From a virus: a stretch of 63,293 bases of DNA. The translations under genes were made by a program, and so were the position numbers. The stretch is from the IMG/VR virus record IMGVR_UViG_3300042887_000199, positions 1 to 63,293 of that record. One strand, given 5' to 3'. The notes under the pieces are model-generated. The model was not told the DNA's origin, made no database searches, and worked only from the letters and a program-made list of their open reading frames with translations. Shown piece after piece: positions 12,218 to 48,115 of this stretch. The stretch's first letter is position 1, and every line of letters begins with the position of its first letter.

Positions 12218-13321
12218 TCATGCAAAGTGCAACTCATTAAACAGCGAGTCGAGTATCAAGTCCACATCCTCGCCATGCTCCAGACACTCAAGCGCCCAGT
12301 CAAGTGACGAAGGCTTGAGACCCTTGAAGTTCATATGCCGTAGCGCCAGCCCTGTATCGTCAGGCCAGATAGACTCGGCAACCATATTGGCCAGCGCATC
12401 GTAGTACCCATACTGCGCATCGAGCACGGCATCGATAGCATCCTCGCGTCTGAAGTCTGGCTCGGCATCAGTGGAGTCGTATGCGTACTGGCTCGTGGTC
12501 TTGTAGCTCTGCCACCAGTTGCCTGTGCCATAAGACATAGGCTCCACCACCGATGGGTCACGCTCAACAGGCAGCGCATCCCAGTCAACAGTCAAGACCG
12601 CAGCAGCAAGGTTGTTGTAGTACACAAGGTCAAGAGACTCCTCTTGCGTATGCTCACGGGCATAGCCCACCGATATGTTGGTGCACTCTGGGATGATGTC
12701 GGTAAACTCTGCGGTATCTGTGTACACGCCAGTGTCATCGTTCAACATCATCAGTGCGTCATGCCCATCCATCAGTGCGTCAGCCAAGGCAGAGCCGAAC
12801 GTATCAGAGCAGCACCTACCCCAACCCTGATGCGTGATGACGCTGTCAATACCACGCCTGTCGAACGCTATCGCACGATCAAACTCACGCAACAAGTCAG
12901 GCATCTTGTCTGCCAGATACCTTGCACCTACACCACCGCGCTCTTCACCTTGCGTGAAGACATAGTAGCCACGCACATTAGCGTGTATCAGATGCATCAA
13001 CAGCGCGACACCTGCACCGTCATCCGCACCCAGTACGTCACCCTTAGCCCGCCAGTGTGTCTTGGTCTTGGCGATCTTGTTCTTGCCCTCGTTACGATGC
13101 ACCGTGTCCACGTGTGCTACGAATAAGGTGCGGTGTGATGCCTTGACTCGGTTGTCCACGTGTAGGTTACCTGCACCGTCATAGAACGCTGCTTTGTTAA
13201 GCTCAAGTGGTAGCTGTTCGCGTAGCCACTGTGTGAATCTGACGTTGGTTGCTGACCCATGTGGGCGCTTGATGGATAGGGCGGTGTTCAGTACCTTGCC
13301 CAGTACGTTAGTTGCTTTCAT
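12218..13321 (-). CDS. M20/M28-family zinc aminopeptidase-like protein
   Basis: 367 residues. The start is ATG 13321, with GAGGAGAAC upstream, right after the previous stop. The open frame continues upstream to 13474 but only as an overlap with the neighbour. Co-catalytic zinc ligands are in the expected order: FVAHVDTVH (His70, Asp72), LGADDG (Asp100), QGEERGG (Glu126, Glu127), AFDRRG (Asp154) and a late His (REHTQEE, His224). The catalytic domain spans about 1-240; the C-terminal 125 residues are acidic, without a recognised fold. A peptidase of this class in a phage early region is unusual. Its substrate is unknown; partners may include host peptides or the adjacent Cys/His-rich protein. 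Confidence 0.85.
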   Translation of the reverse strand: MKATNVLGKVLNTALSIKRPHGSATNVRFTQWLREQLPLELNKAAFYDGAGNLHVDNRVKASHRTLFVAHVDTVHRNEGKNKIAKTKTHWRAKGDVLGADDGAGVALLMHLIHANVRGYYVFTQGEERGGVGARYLADKMPDLLREFDRAIAFDRRGIDSVITHQGWGRCCSDTFGSALADALMDGHDALMMLNDDTGVYTDTAEFTDIIPECTNISVGYAREHTQEESLDLVYYNNLAAAVLTVDWDALPVERDPSVVEPMSYGTGNWWQSYKTTSQYAYDSTDAEPDFRREDAIDAVLDAQYGYYDALANMVAESIWPDDTGLALRHMNFKGLKPSSLDWALECLEHGEDVDLILDSLFNELHFA

Positions 13322-13322
13322 A

Positions 13323-14780
13323 TTAGTTCTCCTCGTTGATTGTGATGTACTCGTGCGCATGGTCAGGGTGTACAGCCAAGCCACACTCGGTCTCGAATGG
13401 CGATACCTCATCGCACAGATACCACTTCTCGTCATGCTCACACTGCCATGCGTCTTGCTCAAGCGCCATGTCACCGTTCTCTAACTCAACGCAGTCATCA
13501 CGATGCTCGGTTGTACATGAGTGGTTGCAATGCACCCAGCAGTCATCATCGCTGTGCACCCAGATGTCACGGTAGTCAAGATGCACCGCATCGTCCTGAT
13601 GCACATAGTCACCGCAGTCAAGCTCAACGATGTCATAGCGGCTCAAGTACTCAGGGTCATAGTACTCACCGTTAACCTCAATCGCGTCACCGAGGTAGAT
13701 GTAGTACTCGTCACCACCACGGCCATGCACTAGTATGTAGTCACCGATGCAGCACTCACCGACTGATCTGTCACCGTAATACCCGATGCTGTATGTCTCA
13801 TCCTCATGCACACGATTACCGCAGTCACCGCAAGAACAACTTGATGAATTACTGGCATGGCCGTCAGTGCGATCACACTCGTACTCACCATTGCGGGTAA
13901 TCAACAGATACTCGCCCTCATCAGACACGTACTTGACATCACCATCGATGTACGGCGCCCAGAAGTCATCGTGATACCTGCCCTCGGTTATCTTGGCAAG
14001 CTTGAGACCTACCCAGTCGTGTGTCTTGGTATAGCCTTGGTCACGCAGCCACACCTCGATAGCCTCATCGCTGTGTGAGTACTGGTTGCTGTTGTCTCTG
14101 CGTGTGTAGGAACGCACAAAGGTCTTGCTCTCGATGTTGACTAAGCACCGCGCAGTGATGAGTTCACTTGCACCCAGACGCACAGCAATACGCCAGCCAT
14201 ACTTGGGGTCATACACCTCATACGGATGCGTCTCACCATCGTGAAGACCTTCCCACCGCATACATGAGTGCGGCCCATCCTGCACCGCTTGCACGATCTT
14301 GGGAACCGTATCCCACAGCACAAACTTATACGGCACGTGGCGCATGGCAATGTCGCGCACCCAGTGGTCAGGCATGGTAGGGAAGTGTCGCGCTATGTAC
14401 TTGCCAACAGATGTAACCGTCTGTCTGTCAGCGTGGCCGTGTGCGTCTGACCTTGTGTATGCGATGCGTGATGGGTCAGAGTCAGCAGCATGGGGGTGTT
14501 CGAGTACAAGCAGATGCCAGTCTGCGGGGGGTGCTAGGGTTACGGCTTGCTGTATCGCAGGATGCACGGGCGATGAGCCATACTCACGAGAGAACCACGT
14601 GCGGTAGTTGTCAGGGTTCTTGTCGGGATACTTGGGTTTGTAGTTATCTGGCAGGTCATCCCAGCCGTAGTTCGTGATGTGACGGCCAACCAGCGCGCGT
14701 TCGTTCAGGATGTGGGCTAAGTCTGTCATCCATTCCCAACGACTAATGCCGCAGTACTCTGCGGGTGTGTACTTGCTCAT
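13323..14780 (-). CDS. Large unknown protein with Cys/His/Asp-rich C-terminal repeats
   Basis: 485 residues, unrecognised. Residues 1-300 are alpha/beta with many aromatic and His residues. From about residue 320 to the end there are repeated short units carrying CGDC, VHEDE, ECC, VHQDD, VHSDD, WVHCNHSC, QCEHDEKWYLC and ECGLAVH, consistent with several small zinc-binding folds or an acidic metal-binding beta structure. The protein is very acidic (pI low). It is the longest early gene without a clear role. The stop and the next start are spaced for coupling with the M20/M28-like peptidase, suggesting a shared function. Confidence 0.8.
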   Translation of the reverse strand: MSKYTPAEYCGISRWEWMTDLAHILNERALVGRHITNYGWDDLPDNYKPKYPDKNPDNYRTWFSREYGSSPVHPAIQQAVTLAPPADWHLLVLEHPHAADSDPSRIAYTRSDAHGHADRQTVTSVGKYIARHFPTMPDHWVRDIAMRHVPYKFVLWDTVPKIVQAVQDGPHSCMRWEGLHDGETHPYEVYDPKYGWRIAVRLGASELITARCLVNIESKTFVRSYTRRDNSNQYSHSDEAIEVWLRDQGYTKTHDWVGLKLAKITEGRYHDDFWAPYIDGDVKYVSDEGEYLLITRNGEYECDRTDGHASNSSSCSCGDCGNRVHEDETYSIGYYGDRSVGECCIGDYILVHGRGGDEYYIYLGDAIEVNGEYYDPEYLSRYDIVELDCGDYVHQDDAVHLDYRDIWVHSDDDCWVHCNHSCTTEHRDDCVELENGDMALEQDAWQCEHDEKWYLCDEVSPFETECGLAVHPDHAHEYITINEEN

Positions 14781-41621: not shown

Positions 41622-42356
41622 ATGCCAAGTACATACTCCCCCGATCTGCGGATCGAACTCATAGCGAACGGTGAAAAGTCCGGTACGTGGGGCACGATCA
41701 CCAACGACAACCTCGGGGTCATTATCGAGGACGCTATTTCTGGCTTGGCATCGGTCTCTGTAACAAGCGCAAACCAAGCGTTAACTGCTCAGAACGGCGC
41801 GGCTGACCAAGCGCGGTGTGCGGCTCTTAGCCTGACTACAACCACAGCAGCTAACTTTGCCATTTACGTCCCGCCGGTTACCAAGCTCTATGTGGTCACA
41901 AACCCATCAGGCTATACGGCAACCGTGTATTGCTCGACCGTTATTGGTAATACCACAGCAGCAGGTACAGGCGTAGCTATCCCTACAGGTAAGTCAGTCC
42001 TGCTTCGTGCTGATGGCACCAATGTGGTGGAGCAGCTAAACCACATCACAGGCAACCTGTCGATTGGCGGCGCGGCTTCTGTGGGCGGCGCTCTTGGCGT
42101 TACAGGCGCTGTGACTGGTGGTAGCTTTGCGGGTCCTCTGACGGGTAATGTCACGGGTAATGTGGCAGGTAACGTCACAGGCAATCTGACAGGCAATGTG
42201 GCCGCTGGCGCTGGGACTATTGCAACAACCAACTTCACCTTTACTGAGGTGGGCGGAGTGCTGTATTTGAAGAATGGCGCAACCAACATCCTGAAGATTG
42301 ACTCGCTGGGCAATGTGACTGCTCTGGCTAACCTGACCGCCTACGGCACGGTGTAA
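41622..42356 (+). CDS. Tail fibre/spike protein
   Basis: 244 residues. PSTYSPDLRIELIANGEKSG, TWGTITNDNLGVIIEDAISG is a recurrent virion-attachment motif. A Gly/Asn/Val repeat (TGNVTGNVAGNVTGNLTGNV, about 177-197) looks like a triple beta-helix shaft. The C-terminus (GVLYLKNGATNILKIDSLGN) is a compact tip. Confidence 0.8.
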   Translation: MPSTYSPDLRIELIANGEKSGTWGTITNDNLGVIIEDAISGLASVSVTSANQALTAQNGAADQARCAALSLTTTTAANFAIYVPPVTKLYVVTNPSGYTATVYCSTVIGNTTAAGTGVAIPTGKSVLLRADGTNVVEQLNHITGNLSIGGAASVGGALGVTGAVTGGSFAGPLTGNVTGNVAGNVTGNLTGNVAAGAGTIATTNFTFTEVGGVLYLKNGATNILKIDSLGNVTALANLTAYGTV

Positions 42357-42358
42357 AT

Positions 42359-43240
42359 ATGGCGCTGCCCTCGTCTGGACCGCTGGCGTTTACCAACATC
42401 CAAACTGAGTTTGGTGGCACGAACCCTATTGGTCTGAACGAATACTACCGGGGTGGCCCTTTTGTGCCAGTCAGTACAAGCACGACTACGATCCCGTCAT
42501 CAGGAACGATTGCAGCAAACAACTTCTATGGCACGGCCAAGCGTATTAACGTGCCTCTGACTATTGGGTCGCCTACATACAACTATGATGTGTACACACA
42601 GGCATCTTCAGCGCCGGGCTATGTGGCGGGTATTTCCGATGTGGCGTTGACAGTCTCCCCCGGCGTATTGGTAGGTAGCACCTCAACCGGTGCGTATGCC
42701 ATGCTGGTGCCAAGCTCATTTAGCCCCGGCGACACTGTCGCTATTACCAACAACGGCGTAATCCAAGGTCGCGGTGGAGATGGTGGTCCGGGGCAGTTTG
42801 GCGCAAGTAACGGCAATCCCGGTGGCGGCGGAGGTAACGCGCTGTACGTCAACCGGCCTGTGACTATTACCAATAACAGTGTCATTGCTGGTGGTGGGGG
42901 CGGTGGCGGAGCAGGGGCAGGTTTTACGCCAAATAAAGGTGGCTCTGATTGGGGTGGTGGCGGTGGTGGCGGTGCGGGCTTTGACGGTGGTGGCGGTGGT
43001 GGCGGCGGTCGTCCGGGTAGTCCGGGATCAAGTTCATCTGGCGGCGCAGGAGGCCCCGGCGGTCAAGGCAATTCAGGCGGTCCGGGCGGTGGACGCGGTG
43101 CGTCAGGTAGTGCTGGGAATCCTATTGGTGGCGCAAACCCGCGCTCTGGTGGTCCCGGTGGCGGTGCGGGCTATTACATCATTGGCAATCCGTTTGTAAC
43201 ATGGGCAGTAAATGGCACACGAGAAGGACCAGCGGGGTAA
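42359..43240 (+). CDS. Glycine-rich adhesin (polyglycine/collagen-like tail protein)
   Basis: 293 residues. The N-terminus LPSSGPLAFTNIQTEFGG and NNFYG is a frequent tail-adhesin opening. From about 140 to 270 the chain is mostly glycine: runs of seven or eight Gly in a row, and GxP patterns such as GGPGGQGNSGGPGGGRGASG. This is similar to the polyglycine type II helix bundles of phage adhesins (S16 gp38-like) or collagen-like fibres. The exposed Pro residues make it a possible substrate for the prolyl-hydroxylase-like enzymes encoded just downstream. Confidence 0.8.
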   Translation: MALPSSGPLAFTNIQTEFGGTNPIGLNEYYRGGPFVPVSTSTTTIPSSGTIAANNFYGTAKRINVPLTIGSPTYNYDVYTQASSAPGYVAGISDVALTVSPGVLVGSTSTGAYAMLVPSSFSPGDTVAITNNGVIQGRGGDGGPGQFGASNGNPGGGGGNALYVNRPVTITNNSVIAGGGGGGGAGAGFTPNKGGSDWGGGGGGGAGFDGGGGGGGGRPGSPGSSSSGGAGGPGGQGNSGGPGGGRGASGSAGNPIGGANPRSGGPGGGAGYYIIGNPFVTWAVNGTREGPAG

Positions 43241-43242
43241 CT

Positions 43243-43584
43243 ATGGACAAAGTAAAGATGAAAATTACTGGGTACGATGAGGCCAGCCACTCGCTGATGG
43301 TTTCGTTTGCCTCAGATACAACCCAAAGCCAAGACCCAGCAAGCTACCCATCCTATGCTTTCCAGCCGCTAACTATGTGGCCTGATGTGACAGATGCGGA
43401 TGAGATCAAGCGACGCGTTGCTATGGCGGGTATACACCACGCACAGATGCAGGAAGCCAAGGAAAAGTTTGTGGCCGATGCGCAGCGCGTTACAGCATTA
43501 AAGTCCATGGTAGGGCAGACACACGAGTTCACAGTAAATGAGTTGACCATTGTGGCGCACGATACGCCATTTCAGGTGGTGTGA
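43243..43584 (+). CDS. Small protein in the adhesin-oxygenase cassette
   Basis: 113 residues from ATG 43243; the longer frame to 43201 lies inside the adhesin gene. The sequence is alpha/beta: KMKITGYDEASHSLMVSFAS, PDVTDADEIKRRVAMAGIHH, then VGQTHEFTVNELTIV. The pattern is of a small fibre-assembly type (tail chaperone-like), but no match is known. Coupled to the next gene by TGATG. Confidence 0.7.
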   Translation: MDKVKMKITGYDEASHSLMVSFASDTTQSQDPASYPSYAFQPLTMWPDVTDADEIKRRVAMAGIHHAQMQEAKEKFVADAQRVTALKSMVGQTHEFTVNELTIVAHDTPFQVV

Positions 43585-44057
43585 TGAGGCGCAAACCCTT
43601 CGCTGCATTTGGCCGCGTCCTGTACGCAAACTACTACGATAAGGGCGATGTGGTTGAGGTGCAGACCAACGCCTCCAGTAGAATTGTTTTGTACTTCAGT
43701 GAAGGCAACTTTACGGCGCGGGATAAGCATACTGGCGAGACGGTGTTGCAATGCGATGCTGGTTGGTTCTCTTATGGCGACCATCAGGATAAGCTGTTGG
43801 TGTGTACGGCCAATGAGCCGACCGTGTGCTGGTGCTATGACCCGGAGATCAACCAAGGGTATGTGCCGCCGATCAATGTGTTTGAGATGAAGCAAGGTCA
43901 GTCCATCACCATGGACGCCAACACCACCCTATTCCTGTGCGGTGGGACATTGCTGGTTAACGAGCGACAGTATATGGGTCCGTATCAGTTGGCAGTGCGC
44001 ACAAACGGCAATACGGCTAGGGCAGTTACAGATGTCTACGGGCTGATGTTTAGATGA
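43584..44057 (+). CDS. Cupin-like beta-barrel protein
   Basis: 157 residues (ATG 43584, a GTG precedes it). Two similar beta-rich halves: IVLYFSEGNFTARDKHTGET, LVCTANEPTVCWCYDPEI and INVFEMKQGQSITMDANTTL, FLCGGTLLVNERQYMGPYQL. The order resembles a double-stranded beta-helix (cupin), the fold of the neighbouring oxygenases, but HxD metal ligands are not visible. It may be an accessory or substrate-binding partner. Confidence 0.6.
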   Translation: MRRKPFAAFGRVLYANYYDKGDVVEVQTNASSRIVLYFSEGNFTARDKHTGETVLQCDAGWFSYGDHQDKLLVCTANEPTVCWCYDPEINQGYVPPINVFEMKQGQSITMDANTTLFLCGGTLLVNERQYMGPYQLAVRTNGNTARAVTDVYGLMFR

Positions 44058-44584
44058 GACACGCAACAAAGTTGCCGATCAGTATCGATCTGTCCCCATT
44101 TAGGGAAGAGCTTCTTGCGCCCCATCAAAAGTACTACCGTGTGCAGAAGTACGCCCGCAATCTGGATGGCACTTCCATCCCCTATACCGAGACACTGAGG
44201 GTTTTGAATGAAGCAGAATTTGTGGCGCAGCTACCAGAAGCGTTGGTTGCCATCGAGTGGCCTAGCTTGTTCATGCTTGAACTCCCTGCCTTGGATGCGC
44301 AAGACCCAGTGCTACCTGCACACGTAGACATCAACAAGACCTGCGGCATCAACGTCTATCTAGATACGCATGGCGAGGTGACTAAGTTCTACCAGTGGAG
44401 CCGGGGTAGCCGTCAGTCTGAGTATGTTGAAGAGTTTTGCGCAAACGCTGGGGATGTGTGGTTGATGGATACGTCGGTGCCGCATTCGGTGGACATGGTG
44501 CCTAATAAGACGCGCAGGATGTTGACGTTTTCGTTTACCAAGACCAAGTATGCGGAGGTGTTGTCGTGCTTCGCAACCAATTGA
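44054..44584 (+). CDS. Fe(II)/2-oxoglutarate oxygenase 1
   Basis: 176 residues. The double-stranded beta-helix has LPAHVDINKTCGINVYLD (His90, Asp92), a sheet with TKFYQW, AGDVWLMDTSVPHSV (His144) and RRMLTFSF (Arg154/155, for 2-oxoglutarate). The His-x-Asp...His triad and a downstream Arg are the full set of catalytic residues. Its overlap with neighbours by four and 19 bases shows co-translation. Substrate unknown; hydroxylation of protein side chains is plausible. Confidence 0.82.
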   Translation: MRHATKLPISIDLSPFREELLAPHQKYYRVQKYARNLDGTSIPYTETLRVLNEAEFVAQLPEALVAIEWPSLFMLELPALDAQDPVLPAHVDINKTCGINVYLDTHGEVTKFYQWSRGSRQSEYVEEFCANAGDVWLMDTSVPHSVDMVPNKTRRMLTFSFTKTKYAEVLSCFATN

Positions 44585-45126
44585 TTCAGGATGTACAGGT
44601 AGATAACGGCAGGAGTTTGCGGGTCTACGACAATGTGCTGGACTTTGAGTACAGGAATCAGATTTACAAGTTTGCGCAAAACTCACTGTTTCAAATTGGC
44701 TGGGCAGATGGGTGTATCGTAGAGAACATGAAGCATCAGTTCCTGCATTCCGTGTATTCGGATGAGGACTTAAATAAGCTTGGGTTGGTTAGTAAGCTGG
44801 AGCAAACGCCCGTTGGTCAGGAGTTTGTGGGGTATAAGCGAGATAAGTGCATCTTAAATTTATCCACGCCAGCAGACGCCAACTTTGTGCATTCGCACCC
44901 AGAAGACAAGGTAATACTGTACTACGTGAACTTGGAGTGGAGAGACGGCTGGCACGGTGAGACGCTATTCTTTGATGAGGCGTGTAAAGACATTGTGTAT
45001 GCAAGTCCGTACACGCCGGGGCGGATCATAGCTTTTGATGGGCGGATTCCACACACCATCAGACCGCAGTCACACTTAGCAGCGTTTTTCAGATTCACCT
45101 TGGCGCTTGTGTACACAAAATGCTGA
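44566..45126 (+). CDS. Fe(II)/2-oxoglutarate oxygenase 2 (prolyl hydroxylase-like)
   Basis: 186 residues, GTG start with GGAGG seven bases upstream. FVHSHPEDKVILYYVNLEW (His109/His111), DGWHGETLFFDEA, then GRIIAFDGRIPHTIRPQS (His163) and FFRFTLALVY (Arg176). The first ligand pair reads His-Ser-His-Pro-Glu-Asp instead of His-x-Asp, a variant also seen in other phage oxygenases of the GGETLFFD type. It may still bind iron through His111 or the following acid. Confidence 0.85.
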   Translation: MLRNQLIQDVQVDNGRSLRVYDNVLDFEYRNQIYKFAQNSLFQIGWADGCIVENMKHQFLHSVYSDEDLNKLGLVSKLEQTPVGQEFVGYKRDKCILNLSTPADANFVHSHPEDKVILYYVNLEWRDGWHGETLFFDEACKDIVYASPYTPGRIIAFDGRIPHTIRPQSHLAAFFRFTLALVYTKC

Positions 45127-45605
45127 TCGTTCTGGATGATGTTTTGGACGAGGAGCACCGGCTGGCGGTGGTGGGTTTTTTCTCCCAGAGCGACGAAGCG
45201 CGGAAGATGAAGTGGGAGCCGGGTGGGGTGGATAAGCTGAACGGCAACAACTCGCCGATGGCGCTGTTGCTAAAGCGGGCAGCGGACTACTTTGATTTGT
45301 CCTTGATGGCAGGTAGCGAATACTGGGCGCACTACGGCACACGGCCTGACTGGCATATCGACAAGGACGAGAAGTTGTACCAGATGTCAGGCAACACCGA
45401 GTGCCCGATTTGCAGCATTGTGTATTACGCCGACATCGATGTGGTGGGCGGCAACTTTGTGACGGAGACGGTATCTGTGAAGCCAGTAACGAACCGCATG
45501 ATTGTGTTCTCCCCCGGTTTGCTGCATGGGGTTGAGAAATACACCGGGACGCGCCTGTCTGTTGCAGTGAATCCGTGGACACACAAACCTTTGGGGTACG
45601 TATGA
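45120..45605 (+). CDS. Fe(II)/2-oxoglutarate oxygenase 3
   Basis: 161 residues. PDWHIDKDEKLYQMSG (His79, Asp81), CSIVYYADIDVVGGNF, MIVFSPGLLHGVEKYTGTR (His136, Arg145). All catalytic residues are present. The protein overlaps oxygenase 2 by seven bases and oxygenase 4 by four. Compared with oxygenases 1, 2 and 4 the sequence is quite different, so this is not simply recent tandem duplication. Confidence 0.83.
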   Translation: MLIVLDDVLDEEHRLAVVGFFSQSDEARKMKWEPGGVDKLNGNNSPMALLLKRAADYFDLSLMAGSEYWAHYGTRPDWHIDKDEKLYQMSGNTECPICSIVYYADIDVVGGNFVTETVSVKPVTNRMIVFSPGLLHGVEKYTGTRLSVAVNPWTHKPLGYV

Positions 45606-46201
45606 TTTTTGCAATACCACCACGCATGAACCACGGGCAGGATGAGATTGCTTTCTGGGACGGCTTTTTAACTGAGGAGGAGATCAACTTCCTTCTAGCC
45701 CAGCCTGAGTGGGTGCAACGAGAGGCGGGATGCATTGGCGGGGATAATGGTGCGGTGGTTGACCCGAGTATCCGGGAGACAAGTGTTAGCTGGATAGGGG
45801 CGAAGCCTGAGATGGAAGCCTTGTGGGGTAAGCTTTCCCGAGTAGTAGCAGAGGTTAACCGGCGTTACTTTCATTTTGATCTGACCGGGTTCTATGAGCC
45901 TATGCAGCTAGGGGTTTACACCGGGGATACAGGTGGGCATTATGGCTGGCATACGGACGCGTCTTCGCGTGATTCTGGAGTGCCGCGCAAGCTGTCAATG
46001 GTGCTGCTTCTGTCTGACCCATCTGAGTTTGAGGGTGGGGAGTTTCAGGTAAAAACAACGAGTGACGAGGCCAAGACTCTGGAGTTAAAGCGTGGCAGGG
46101 CGTGGTTCTTTCCGTCTTACATGCTGCATCGGGTGACCCCTGTGACCAAGGGCGTTCGTCGTTCATTAGTGCTATGGGTCGGTGGCCCACCGTTCAGGTA
46201 G
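45602..46201 (+). CDS. Fe(II)/2-oxoglutarate oxygenase 4 (PKHD-type prolyl hydroxylase)
   Basis: 199 residues from ATG 45602 (ATGA overlap). FAIPPRMNHGQDEIAFWDGF is followed by the PKHD-type signature HYGWHTDASSRDSGVPRKLS (His117, Asp119), LLLSDPSEFEGGEFQ, WFFPSYMLHRVTPVTKGVR (His176, Arg187). This is the clearest prolyl-hydroxylase-type member, similar in layout to bacterial YbiX/PiuC. It completes a four-gene oxygenase run. Confidence 0.9.
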   Translation: MIFAIPPRMNHGQDEIAFWDGFLTEEEINFLLAQPEWVQREAGCIGGDNGAVVDPSIRETSVSWIGAKPEMEALWGKLSRVVAEVNRRYFHFDLTGFYEPMQLGVYTGDTGGHYGWHTDASSRDSGVPRKLSMVLLLSDPSEFEGGEFQVKTTSDEAKTLELKRGRAWFFPSYMLHRVTPVTKGVRRSLVLWVGGPPFR

Positions 46202-46207
46202 ATTGAT

Positions 46208-48115
46208 ATGCCATTACAGAAACTACAATTTCGCCCCGGCGTAAACCGCGAAGGCACCACACTTGCCAATGAGGGGGGCTGGTTTGACTGCGACAAGATT
46301 CGCTTTCGCTCGGGCTATCCTGAGAAGATCGGCGGCTGGGCTGCGCTGTCGTACAACACCTTCCTTGGTGTGTGCCGCTCGTTGTGGAACTGGGTGACAC
46401 TTAGAAGCTACAACTTAATGGGCGTTGGCACGAACTTGAAGTTTTACGTTGAGGACGGTGGCGAGTACTACGACATCACCCCATTACGTGAGATTAACGG
46501 CAACACTCCTTCTGCTGGCCCACCCGTAGTTAATGCTTCTACGATCACGCTTACCGCCAGCGGCACAGTATTGACTATATCCGACAGCGCCGCAGACAGC
46601 TTGCAGGTAGACGACTTTGTAACCATAGCGGGTGCGGGTACGATTGGTGGTGTGAATGTTAACGGTGAGTATCAAATTGCAACTGTTACGTCAGGCACTA
46701 CTTACACGGTTACGCTAACCACGCCAGCAACAGGAAGCAACTCCGCCGCAACAATAACACTCGCCTACCAGATCAATACAGGCTTTCCTATCTACACCAT
46801 CGGCACTGGCTGGGGTACTGGCTCTTGGTCACGTGGTTCATGGGGTTCAGGTTTTACGACAGGCTTTGGTTTGCAGTTGCGCTTGTGGAGTCAGGCTAAC
46901 TTTGGTGAGGATTTGTTGTTTTCGCCACGCGGCGGCGCGTTTTACATTTGGCAACCCGGCTCGGGCGCTACTCCTGCTTATGGTACTCGCGGGGCGTTAA
47001 TTTCTGGCACGGATGTTCCGTCTCTGGTCAACCAGATTATGGTGTCTGATACCTCACGGATTGTTATCTGTTTTGGGTGTAACGATTACGGCGCGTACAA
47101 CACGACCCCTCAAGACCCGTTGCTTATTCGTTGGTCTGAACAAGAAAGTTACACCGGATGGACTCCAGCGGCGACAAACCAAGCAGGAAGCTACCGACTT
47201 TCTCGTGGCTCCGAAATTATTGGTGCAATACAGACTCGTCAAGAAATCGTGGTGTGGACTGACGCGGCTATTTACTCGATGCAGTATCTTGGACCACCGT
47301 TTGTGTACGGCTTCACCCTTCTTGCAGACAACATCTCCATCGTATCCCCCAATGCTATGGCAACAGCCAACGGTGTTGTGTACTGGATGGGTGTGGATAA
47401 GTTCTATGTTTACTCTGGCCGGGTAGAGACACTGCCTTGCTCGGTACGTCAATTCATCTTTAATGACATTAATCGTGACCAAGAGGCGCAGTTCAACGCT
47501 GGCACCAACGAAGGCTACTCTGAAGTCTGGTGGAACTACTGCTCCAAGAACTCGACCGTCATCGACCGCTACGTCATCTTTAACTACCTTGACCGGGTTT
47601 GGTACTACGGTACGTTAGATCGTACGGCTTGGTTGGATTCTCCACTGCGTCAGTTTCCAATGGCGGCAACGGAAGGGAATATTGTTGTGTACCACGAAGC
47701 GGCGGTGGATGACGGCAGCACTAACCCACCCAGCGCTATTAACGCGTACATACAGTCGTCAGACTTTGATATTGGCGACGGGCACAACTATGGGTTTGTT
47801 TGGCGGATTGTGCCGGATATTACGTTCGATGGGTCAGACACCACGGGCGCTACAAACGATAAGCCGTTTGTCACCTTTACAGTAAGGCCGAAACAAAACC
47901 CCGGCGCTGCATATGGTACGGCGGCAACCCCAGATGTGACTTCAGCGCAGAGCTACGCCGGGCAGACCGCCTACAACGTGCAGCAGTTTACAGAGATTGT
48001 GTACAGCCGGGTGCGTGGCAGACAGATGGCGTTTAAGGTGGAGTCGAATTCAATTGGTACACAGTGGCAGTTGGGTGTTCCTCGTGTTGATGTTCGTCCT
48101 GATGGGAGAAACTAA
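46208..48115 (+). CDS. Tail nozzle/hub protein (T7 gp12/P22 gp10-like)
   Basis: 635 residues. LQKLQFRPGVNREGTTLANE and WFDCDKIRFRSGYPEKIGGW are hallmarks of podovirus tail nozzle proteins; beta-propeller-like repeats continue to PRVDVRPDGRN. Residues about 105-190 (VVNASTITLTASGTVLTISD to NSAATITLAYQ) are an inserted Ig-like domain. It builds the tube below the connectors. Confidence 0.85.
   Translation: MPLQKLQFRPGVNREGTTLANEGGWFDCDKIRFRSGYPEKIGGWAALSYNTFLGVCRSLWNWVTLRSYNLMGVGTNLKFYVEDGGEYYDITPLREINGNTPSAGPPVVNASTITLTASGTVLTISDSAADSLQVDDFVTIAGAGTIGGVNVNGEYQIATVTSGTTYTVTLTTPATGSNSAATITLAYQINTGFPIYTIGTGWGTGSWSRGSWGSGFTTGFGLQLRLWSQANFGEDLLFSPRGGAFYIWQPGSGATPAYGTRGALISGTDVPSLVNQIMVSDTSRIVICFGCNDYGAYNTTPQDPLLIRWSEQESYTGWTPAATNQAGSYRLSRGSEIIGAIQTRQEIVVWTDAAIYSMQYLGPPFVYGFTLLADNISIVSPNAMATANGVVYWMGVDKFYVYSGRVETLPCSVRQFIFNDINRDQEAQFNAGTNEGYSEVWWNYCSKNSTVIDRYVIFNYLDRVWYYGTLDRTAWLDSPLRQFPMAATEGNIVVYHEAAVDDGSTNPPSAINAYIQSSDFDIGDGHNYGFVWRIVPDITFDGSDTTGATNDKPFVTFTVRPKQNPGAAYGTAATPDVTSAQSYAGQTAYNVQQFTEIVYSRVRGRQMAFKVESNSIGTQWQLGVPRVDVRPDGRN

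Follow-up and report, generated by a model that had tools for sequence, protein, structure and literature searches.

Clusters of 2-oxoglutarate (2OG)-Fe(II) oxygenase genes linked to phage tail genes are already known. In the Synechococcus cyanomyovirus S-CAM8 (NC_021530, SXCG_00049 to SXCG_00039) six oxygenase genes, four of them tandem and overlapping, precede a tail fibre gene. Phage P-SSM7 has three tandem oxygenases before a virion structural gene and two tail fibre genes, DSL-LC04 codes in sequence for a Gly-rich protein, one open reading frame (ORF) and an oxygenase, and in the gp61-gp72 region of Pelagibacter phage HTVC023P the Gly-rich gp61, gp62 and gp70 lie beside oxygenases gp65, gp66, gp67 and gp71. 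Published work counts such phage genes among metabolic genes whose function is unknown. The passages concerned describe eight non-orthologous 2OG oxygenases of HTVC023P-type phages as auxiliary metabolic genes (PMC9599517), 24 in S-SCSM1 whose functions were not specifically investigated there (PMC9602691), and EGLN3-like oxygenase folds across marine phages (PMC12774648). Tail modification is proposed in none of these passages, and no report of it by phage 2OG oxygenases was found in the literature searched. Here we describe a gene cassette from IMG/VR virus record IMGVR_UViG_3300042887_000199 (positions 1 to 63,293, the whole stretch analysed, called the window). Its seven closely packed plus strand genes (42359-46201) code for a Gly-rich protein predicted to be a tail adhesin, a small protein, a bicupin-like protein and four oxygenase-type proteins, OX1 to OX4.

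The virus is an HTVC023P-like podovirus, an aquatic phage, with a large terminase closest to those of Pelagibacter phages HTVC027P and HTVC023P (51-54%; 51% for HTVC023P). The oxygenase region is followed by a stabilisation-type gene in both HTVC023P and the window, and gp65 and gp67 are OX4-like and OX5-like, respectively, OX5 being a further family. However, HTVC023P lacks homologues of OX1, OX2 and OX3 and its oxygenases are interleaved with tail proteins. S-CAM8 features a Gly_rich_2 tail protein (PF21722) and then homologues of OX4 (8.7e-42) and OX5 (4.8e-43), but its run of four is built from other oxygenase families, its Gly-rich protein is of another family and no bicupin-like gene was seen. 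The pairing of Gly-rich and oxygenase genes is thus repeated in the unrelated layouts of HTVC023P, DSL-LC04 and S-CAM8. The original prediction held a run of four to be unusual; it is, though not unprecedented among cultured marine phages, S-CAM8 having four in tandem among its six. The present locus shows a real link to the adhesin, and with it to host recognition, and an unusual conserved His-x-His motif. In HTVC027P a tandem run of three reverse-oriented genes (gp72-gp74, L134:2093-3754) adjoins tail genes; of these, gp73 is annotated as a 2OG oxygenase and gp72 and gp74 are oxygenase-like by motif.

Four scans of IMG/VR yielded 72 distinct related loci, some of them truncated. The order adhesin, small gene, bicupin-like gene, oxygenases recurs throughout these loci, which have 1 to 6 oxygenases drawn from eight families. 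The oxygenase order is kept in 59 of the 67 loci with two or more. Upstream sequence is long enough for the comparison in 40 loci: in 36 of them an adhesin or small gene lies no more than 5 kb ahead of the first oxygenase, and of the remaining four, three contain another Gly-rich ORF. The oxygenase set tracks adhesin divergence (partial Mantel r=0.59, p=0.0005, controlling for either flanking tail gene, in a test that assumes exchangeability) while the flanking tail genes do not track it (r=0.04 and -0.01). This co-inheritance is established; no other evidence speaks as strongly for the cassette as one unit, and it argues for a functional connection with host recognition. A search for conserved linkage of Gly-rich tail genes and oxygenases had been proposed with the original prediction, and such linkage is real. 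Two loci show that the cassette recombines as a unit. In one a near-identical OX1-OX4 block is followed by different downstream tail genes (L060:1-4920), while in the other (L082) an 86% identical stabilisation gene accompanies a different adhesin and different oxygenases. Bacterial relatives of OX4, many of them in Rhodobacteraceae and Flavobacteriia, have a Gly-rich ORF nearby in only 3 of 79 loci and therefore give no hint of the substrate; no bacterial relatives of OX2 were found in GTDB genomes. The sole host hint is a contig binned as a Bacteroidetes metagenome-assembled genome (L135), possibly a misbinned phage contig, with a Gly-rich ORF and an OX4 of 67% identity.

Conservation and joint inheritance of the block across many related phages make a role of the enzymes in host recognition probable. 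We favour a reading, granting it slightly less than an even chance, in which the genes form a mobile cassette for host recognition and its oxygenases hydroxylate the adhesin complex. The adhesin, the small tail protein, the bicupin-like protein and the 2OG oxygenases would be made from one translationally coupled late gene run. Before assembly, while still in the host cytoplasm, the newly made adhesin, its accessory proteins or both would be hydroxylated on side chains by the oxygenases, with a separate site for each enzyme, and hydroxylation would tune folding, stability or receptor binding. The protein substrate, the modified residues and the modification of the virion are steps that we infer; OX2 and OX4 are indeed similar to hydroxylases that act on proteins or amino acids (PHD2, P4H, PolD). 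The broader proposal is more doubtful: that such oxygenase sets, some with a three-His iron site, hydroxylate polyglycine adhesins or their partners and thereby set or tune host recognition, and are widespread in aquatic phages that exchange adhesin and enzymes as one unit.

Several observations weigh against the adhesin complex as substrate. The bicupin-like and small proteins follow the oxygenase set no less closely than the adhesin, which is therefore not singled out, and some of the correlation between adhesin and oxygenases could stem from physical linkage within the cassette. Cyanophage relatives of OX2 and OX3 are found not only near tail genes but also next to replication or sugar-epimerase/glycosyltransferase genes. 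To our knowledge, the Gp38 adhesins of T-even phages work with no described oxygenase partner. The specific version of the original prediction, prolyl hydroxylation at Gly-Pro-Gly (GPG) sites, is not supported. Adhesins from loci whose oxygenase sets are alike differ in their number of GPG-type sites, from 0 to 9, and P118 is the single adhesin proline to be conserved. Counts of GPG, GGP and PGG showed no relation to oxygenase content, loci with four or five oxygenases having zero such sites, and the GPG prolyl substrate was rejected. In a residue-by-residue screen of the adhesin against the presence of each oxygenase, the top associations (P at 283 with OX5, phi 0.84; K193 with OX1, phi 0.75) seem to reflect a clade split and not to be evidence for sites.

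A virion protein and the host surface would lead to the same linkage as substrates, and sequence cannot separate them. The main rival explanation, which we consider unlikely, has the oxygenases acting during infection on the host receptor or cell surface (an outer-membrane protein, or the lipid or sugar of lipopolysaccharide); such modification might, for instance, prevent superinfection or keep progeny off debris. Linkage to the adhesin is equally expected in that case because enzymes and adhesin must match the same receptor. The OX3 relatives of S-SCSM2R and Sf-FS3 adjoin epimerase, glycosyltransferase and fucosyltransferase genes. In several related loci (L091:2165-2887, L085:5589-6314, L047:7781-8512, L079:3311-4108 and L126:1096-1818) the cassette has an inserted gene resembling fatty-acid desaturases of the membrane type, with His-box motifs and a weak DesA match, which also fits a surface target. 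The same holds for the only Pfam lead of OX1, the Asp_Arg_Hydrox family (0.12), which also contains the lipid A hydroxylase LpxO. In pelagimyophages, glycosyltransferases of the host-recognition islands are believed to change the host surface (PMC7029224). Yet the cassette of the window is without a glycan or lipid gene, the oxygenase genes lie in a late virion operon, no signal peptide or membrane segment is apparent on inspection of OX1-OX4, and the likeness of OX2 and OX4 to protein and amino-acid hydroxylases argues for the favoured hydroxylation of adhesin-complex proteins.

The four oxygenase-type genes are consecutive and overlapping on the plus strand, as originally described: junctions of ATGA/TGATG type occur at 44054 and 45602, and also at 43584, while overlaps of 19 and 7 bases are found at 44566 and 45120. 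The described iron-site motifs, His-x-Asp...His...Arg in the first, third and fourth genes and His-x-His in the second, were located in all four proteins, and their occurrence is far beyond chance. Profile-profile comparison links only OX3 and OX4 (87%; other pairs <22%), in agreement with the statement that the genes are divergent and not recently duplicated. OX1-OX4 are thus four mutually divergent families of 2OG-Fe(II)-oxygenase type, that is, of the double-stranded beta-helix (DSBH) fold. All four genes have a low ratio of nonsynonymous to synonymous substitution rates (0.06-0.10; OX1 0.10, OX2 0.09), which establishes purifying selection, and we infer that the proteins carry out iron- and 2OG-dependent catalysis.

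OX3 (45120..45605, plus strand; His79-x-Asp81...His136...Arg145) and OX4 (45602..46201, plus strand; His117-x-Asp119...His176...Arg186) belong to the 2OG-Fe(II) oxygenase superfamily, as judged from their profile matches and invariant HxD...H...R. PF13640 (2OG-FeII_Oxy_3; cut-off 27 bits) matches OX3 with 27.5 bits (6.1e-6) and OX4 with 62.5 bits (7.5e-17), and OX4 also matches phrog_61 (2.8e-33). Conservation of the iron-site residues is established, with H79/D81/H136/R145 present in 100% of 45 OX3 homologues and H117/D119/H176/R186 in 100% of 62 OX4 homologues. OX4 is of PKHD/P4H type and shares the catalytic core of the PKHD-type hydroxylases YbiX/PiuC (NCBIfam 3e-19; PDB matches, including 3dkq and PiuC, 1e-10 to 1e-8). 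It differs from them in scoring under the NCBIfam cut-offs (69 vs 143 bits), in its unmatched N-terminal half and in its phage tail context.

OX2 (44566..45126, plus strand; His109-x-His111...His163...Arg176) is predicted by its AlphaFold2 model (predicted local distance difference test, pLDDT, 89) to have a DSBH fold of PHD/P4H type. Foldseek aligns it to PolD (1e-8) and PHD2 (~1e-7) with template modelling (TM) scores of 0.6-0.7, the best structural neighbour being PolD, an amino-acid hydroxylase. OX2 shares this fold with the PHD2/EGLN prolyl hydroxylases and bacterial P4H, but differs from them in its low identity (~17%) and in having His-x-His instead of His-x-Asp. The first and last His are invariant among its homologues, the 2OG-type Arg is conserved and the middle His is present in 45 of 47, HxD being restricted to the two most divergent; OX2 relatives in other phages have HxD. 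The motif may be an unusual three-histidine iron site. A sequencing error was rejected as its origin since it is kept in those 45 homologues and in the cultured phage S-SCSM2R. Membership of the FlmC family was also rejected (NCBIfam 52.8 bits vs cut-off 240), and the name gives no lead as Caulobacter FlmC is a cytidylyltransferase-like protein.

The structural resemblance of OX2 to PolD would also suit a reading of the oxygenases as ordinary auxiliary metabolic genes, with small molecules or cellular 2-oxoglutarate as the target and a place in the tail module owed to chance. This is the published view for cyanophages, where 2OG and NtcA are invoked (PMC3037559), and in the passages on S-SCSM1 (PMC9602691) and pelagiphages (PMC9599517). 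It is rendered improbable by the co-inheritance with the adhesin and fixed gene order, by the recruitment of several non-homologous oxygenase families to one place and by the lack of other metabolic genes in the window cassette.

OX1 (44054..44584, plus strand; His90-x-Asp92...His144...Arg154) has a predicted DSBH fold with an HxD...H site, an assignment that comes from its AlphaFold2 model (pLDDT 96.2). Foldseek matches are mostly 2OG oxygenases (AlkB, YcfD and AspH, ~1e-4) with some cupins, at modest TM scores of 0.4-0.5, and its viral structure matches include annotated phage oxygenases. OX1 scores below the curated profile cut-off (PF05118, 12.7 bits vs 22.6) and neither a PDB sequence match nor a tblastn match in INPHARED phages was found. 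H90 and H144 are invariant in 50 homologues, position 92 being Asp in 76% and His in 24%. Prediction of the active-site structures, suggested earlier as a check, thus bears out the DSBH folds of OX1 and OX2 and the HxD...H site of OX1, OX2 having HxH and not the expected HxD. Of the 12 members of OX1b, a family related to OX1, 11 carry HxH and in the twelfth the motif was not read, so that His-x-His in place of His-x-Asp is conserved in two separate phage oxygenase-type families. L078:5803-6405 is one such OX1b member, and the motif is also seen at L129:6998-7507.

The absence of the usual Asp from OX2 and OX1b could mean that the DSBH barrels of the cassette are structural or binding modules, parts of the virion or chaperones with little or no catalysis. 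A weak match of OX1 to the minor coat protein family phrog_1644 (0.11) points the same way, as does the neighbouring bicupin-like protein, apparently a barrel of similar overall fold that lacks metal ligands. We give this a little less credence than a metabolic role, because OX3 and OX4 show no variation in the residues that bind iron and 2OG, nor OX1 and OX2 in their two outer His. Moreover, the passage on the S-SCSM1 virion proteome names no oxygenase among non-structural virion proteins (PMC9602691).

The Gly-rich protein (42359..43240, plus strand) is identified from its sequence as a Gp38-type polyglycine tail adhesin, with a predicted location at the receptor-binding tip and a predicted role in receptor binding. 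T-even adhesins of this type are Gly-rich receptor-binding tips. The Pfam match to PF05268 (GP38) reaches 34 bits against a cut-off of 25 (3.6e-8), phrog_2056 (tail fibre host specificity) matches with 3e-14, and weak alignments were obtained to the solved gp38 structures 6f45 and 9v85. The suggestion of a collagen-like protein was rejected: the Gly runs are irregularly spaced, there is no regular Gly-X-Y triplet array and Pfam gives GP38 only. The adhesin belongs to the same receptor-binding tip family as Gp38 of T2/S16-type phages but has a different N-terminal domain and is carried alongside an oxygenase cassette. Gp38 of T2-type phages is located at the fibre tip and that of PP01 binds OmpC (PMC12892980).

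All genes named in the original prediction (42359, 43584, 44054, 44566, 45120 and 45602) are present on the plus strand. It had missed the small gene (43243..43584, plus strand) between the adhesin and the beta-helix gene, which has a conserved position in nearly all related loci. Its product, without a Pfam match above cut-off, is a possible fibre-assembly chaperone of the tail module. The following gene (43584..44057, plus strand) codes for the putative bicupin-like beta-barrel protein, recognised by its sequence pattern; it lacks metal ligands and has no match in Pfam or NCBIfam. Its place is occupied in other loci by a different bicupin-like family (L098:5882-6376, L109:5167-5658) with a weak Cupin_2 match (0.096).

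The match of OX2 to phrog_274 (8e-14), a family labelled DNA endonuclease V, is one lead to a function in DNA modification or repair of AlkB, TET or J-base-hydroxylase type. The fold matches of OX1 include AlkB, and OX2 and OX4 relatives lie among replication genes in some cyanophages and CRP-810. Such a role is very improbable given the tail operon location, with no DNA-modification genes alongside in the window. Furthermore, P-SSM7 'denV' (L131:6478-7056) and S-CAM8 'DNA endonuclease' (L220:9933-10448) are themselves PF13640 (2OG-FeII_Oxy_3) oxygenases above cut-off. The endonuclease name is therefore apparently an annotation error, and the names of PHROG 274 and 2297 appear wrong.

A similar correction concerns phage 'ferrochelatases' (phrog_2954, phrog_3531), which from their sequences look like 2OG-oxygenase-type proteins with HxD...H motifs. 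HTVC023P gp67 (L034:29302-29922) and S-CAM8 SXCG_00046 (L220:7519-8127), both so labelled, belong to the OX5 family (1e-58 and 4.8e-43, respectively) and have no Pfam ferrochelatase match. OX5 has no Pfam 2OG match either, and its assignment as an oxygenase is thus based on the motif pattern, with HxDR..CE fixed in 37 of 37 members, and on its neighbourhood. P-SSM2 PSSM2_169 (L216:4391-4984), another 'ferrochelatase', matches a 2OG oxygenase PHROG (3.7e-26). Ferrochelatases were described as paired with 2OG oxygenases in phages (PMC11561400 and a passage of PMC9599517), a pairing that may accordingly be one of oxygenase with oxygenase.

The cassette is flanked by virion protein genes. Upstream lies a gene for a tail-fibre-like structural protein (41622..42356, plus strand; phrog_31104 2.7e-13, with a weak match to tail fibre phrog_30742, 0.003), placed outside the cassette because of the recombination evidence and without tracking of the oxygenase set. 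The downstream boundary is a gene for a podovirus virion structural protein of stabilisation type (46208..48115, plus strand; phrog_3287 4e-63), whose homologue in DSL-LC04 is annotated as stabilization protein. A Peptidase M28-like gene in the early region (window 12218-13474, minus strand; PF04389 just above cut-off) seemed out of the ordinary for a phage.

Marine phages very often carry 2OG-Fe(II) oxygenases as accessory genes, and none of these has a tested role in the literature searched. Relabelling phage 'ferrochelatase' and 'DNA endonuclease V' proteins as oxygenase-type would alter published statements on phage iron and heme genes. The conserved His-x-His of two families would, if active, be an unusual variant of the iron site. 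The existence of ordered cassettes co-inherited with a receptor-binding adhesin shifts the question on these enzymes from host metabolism to host recognition.

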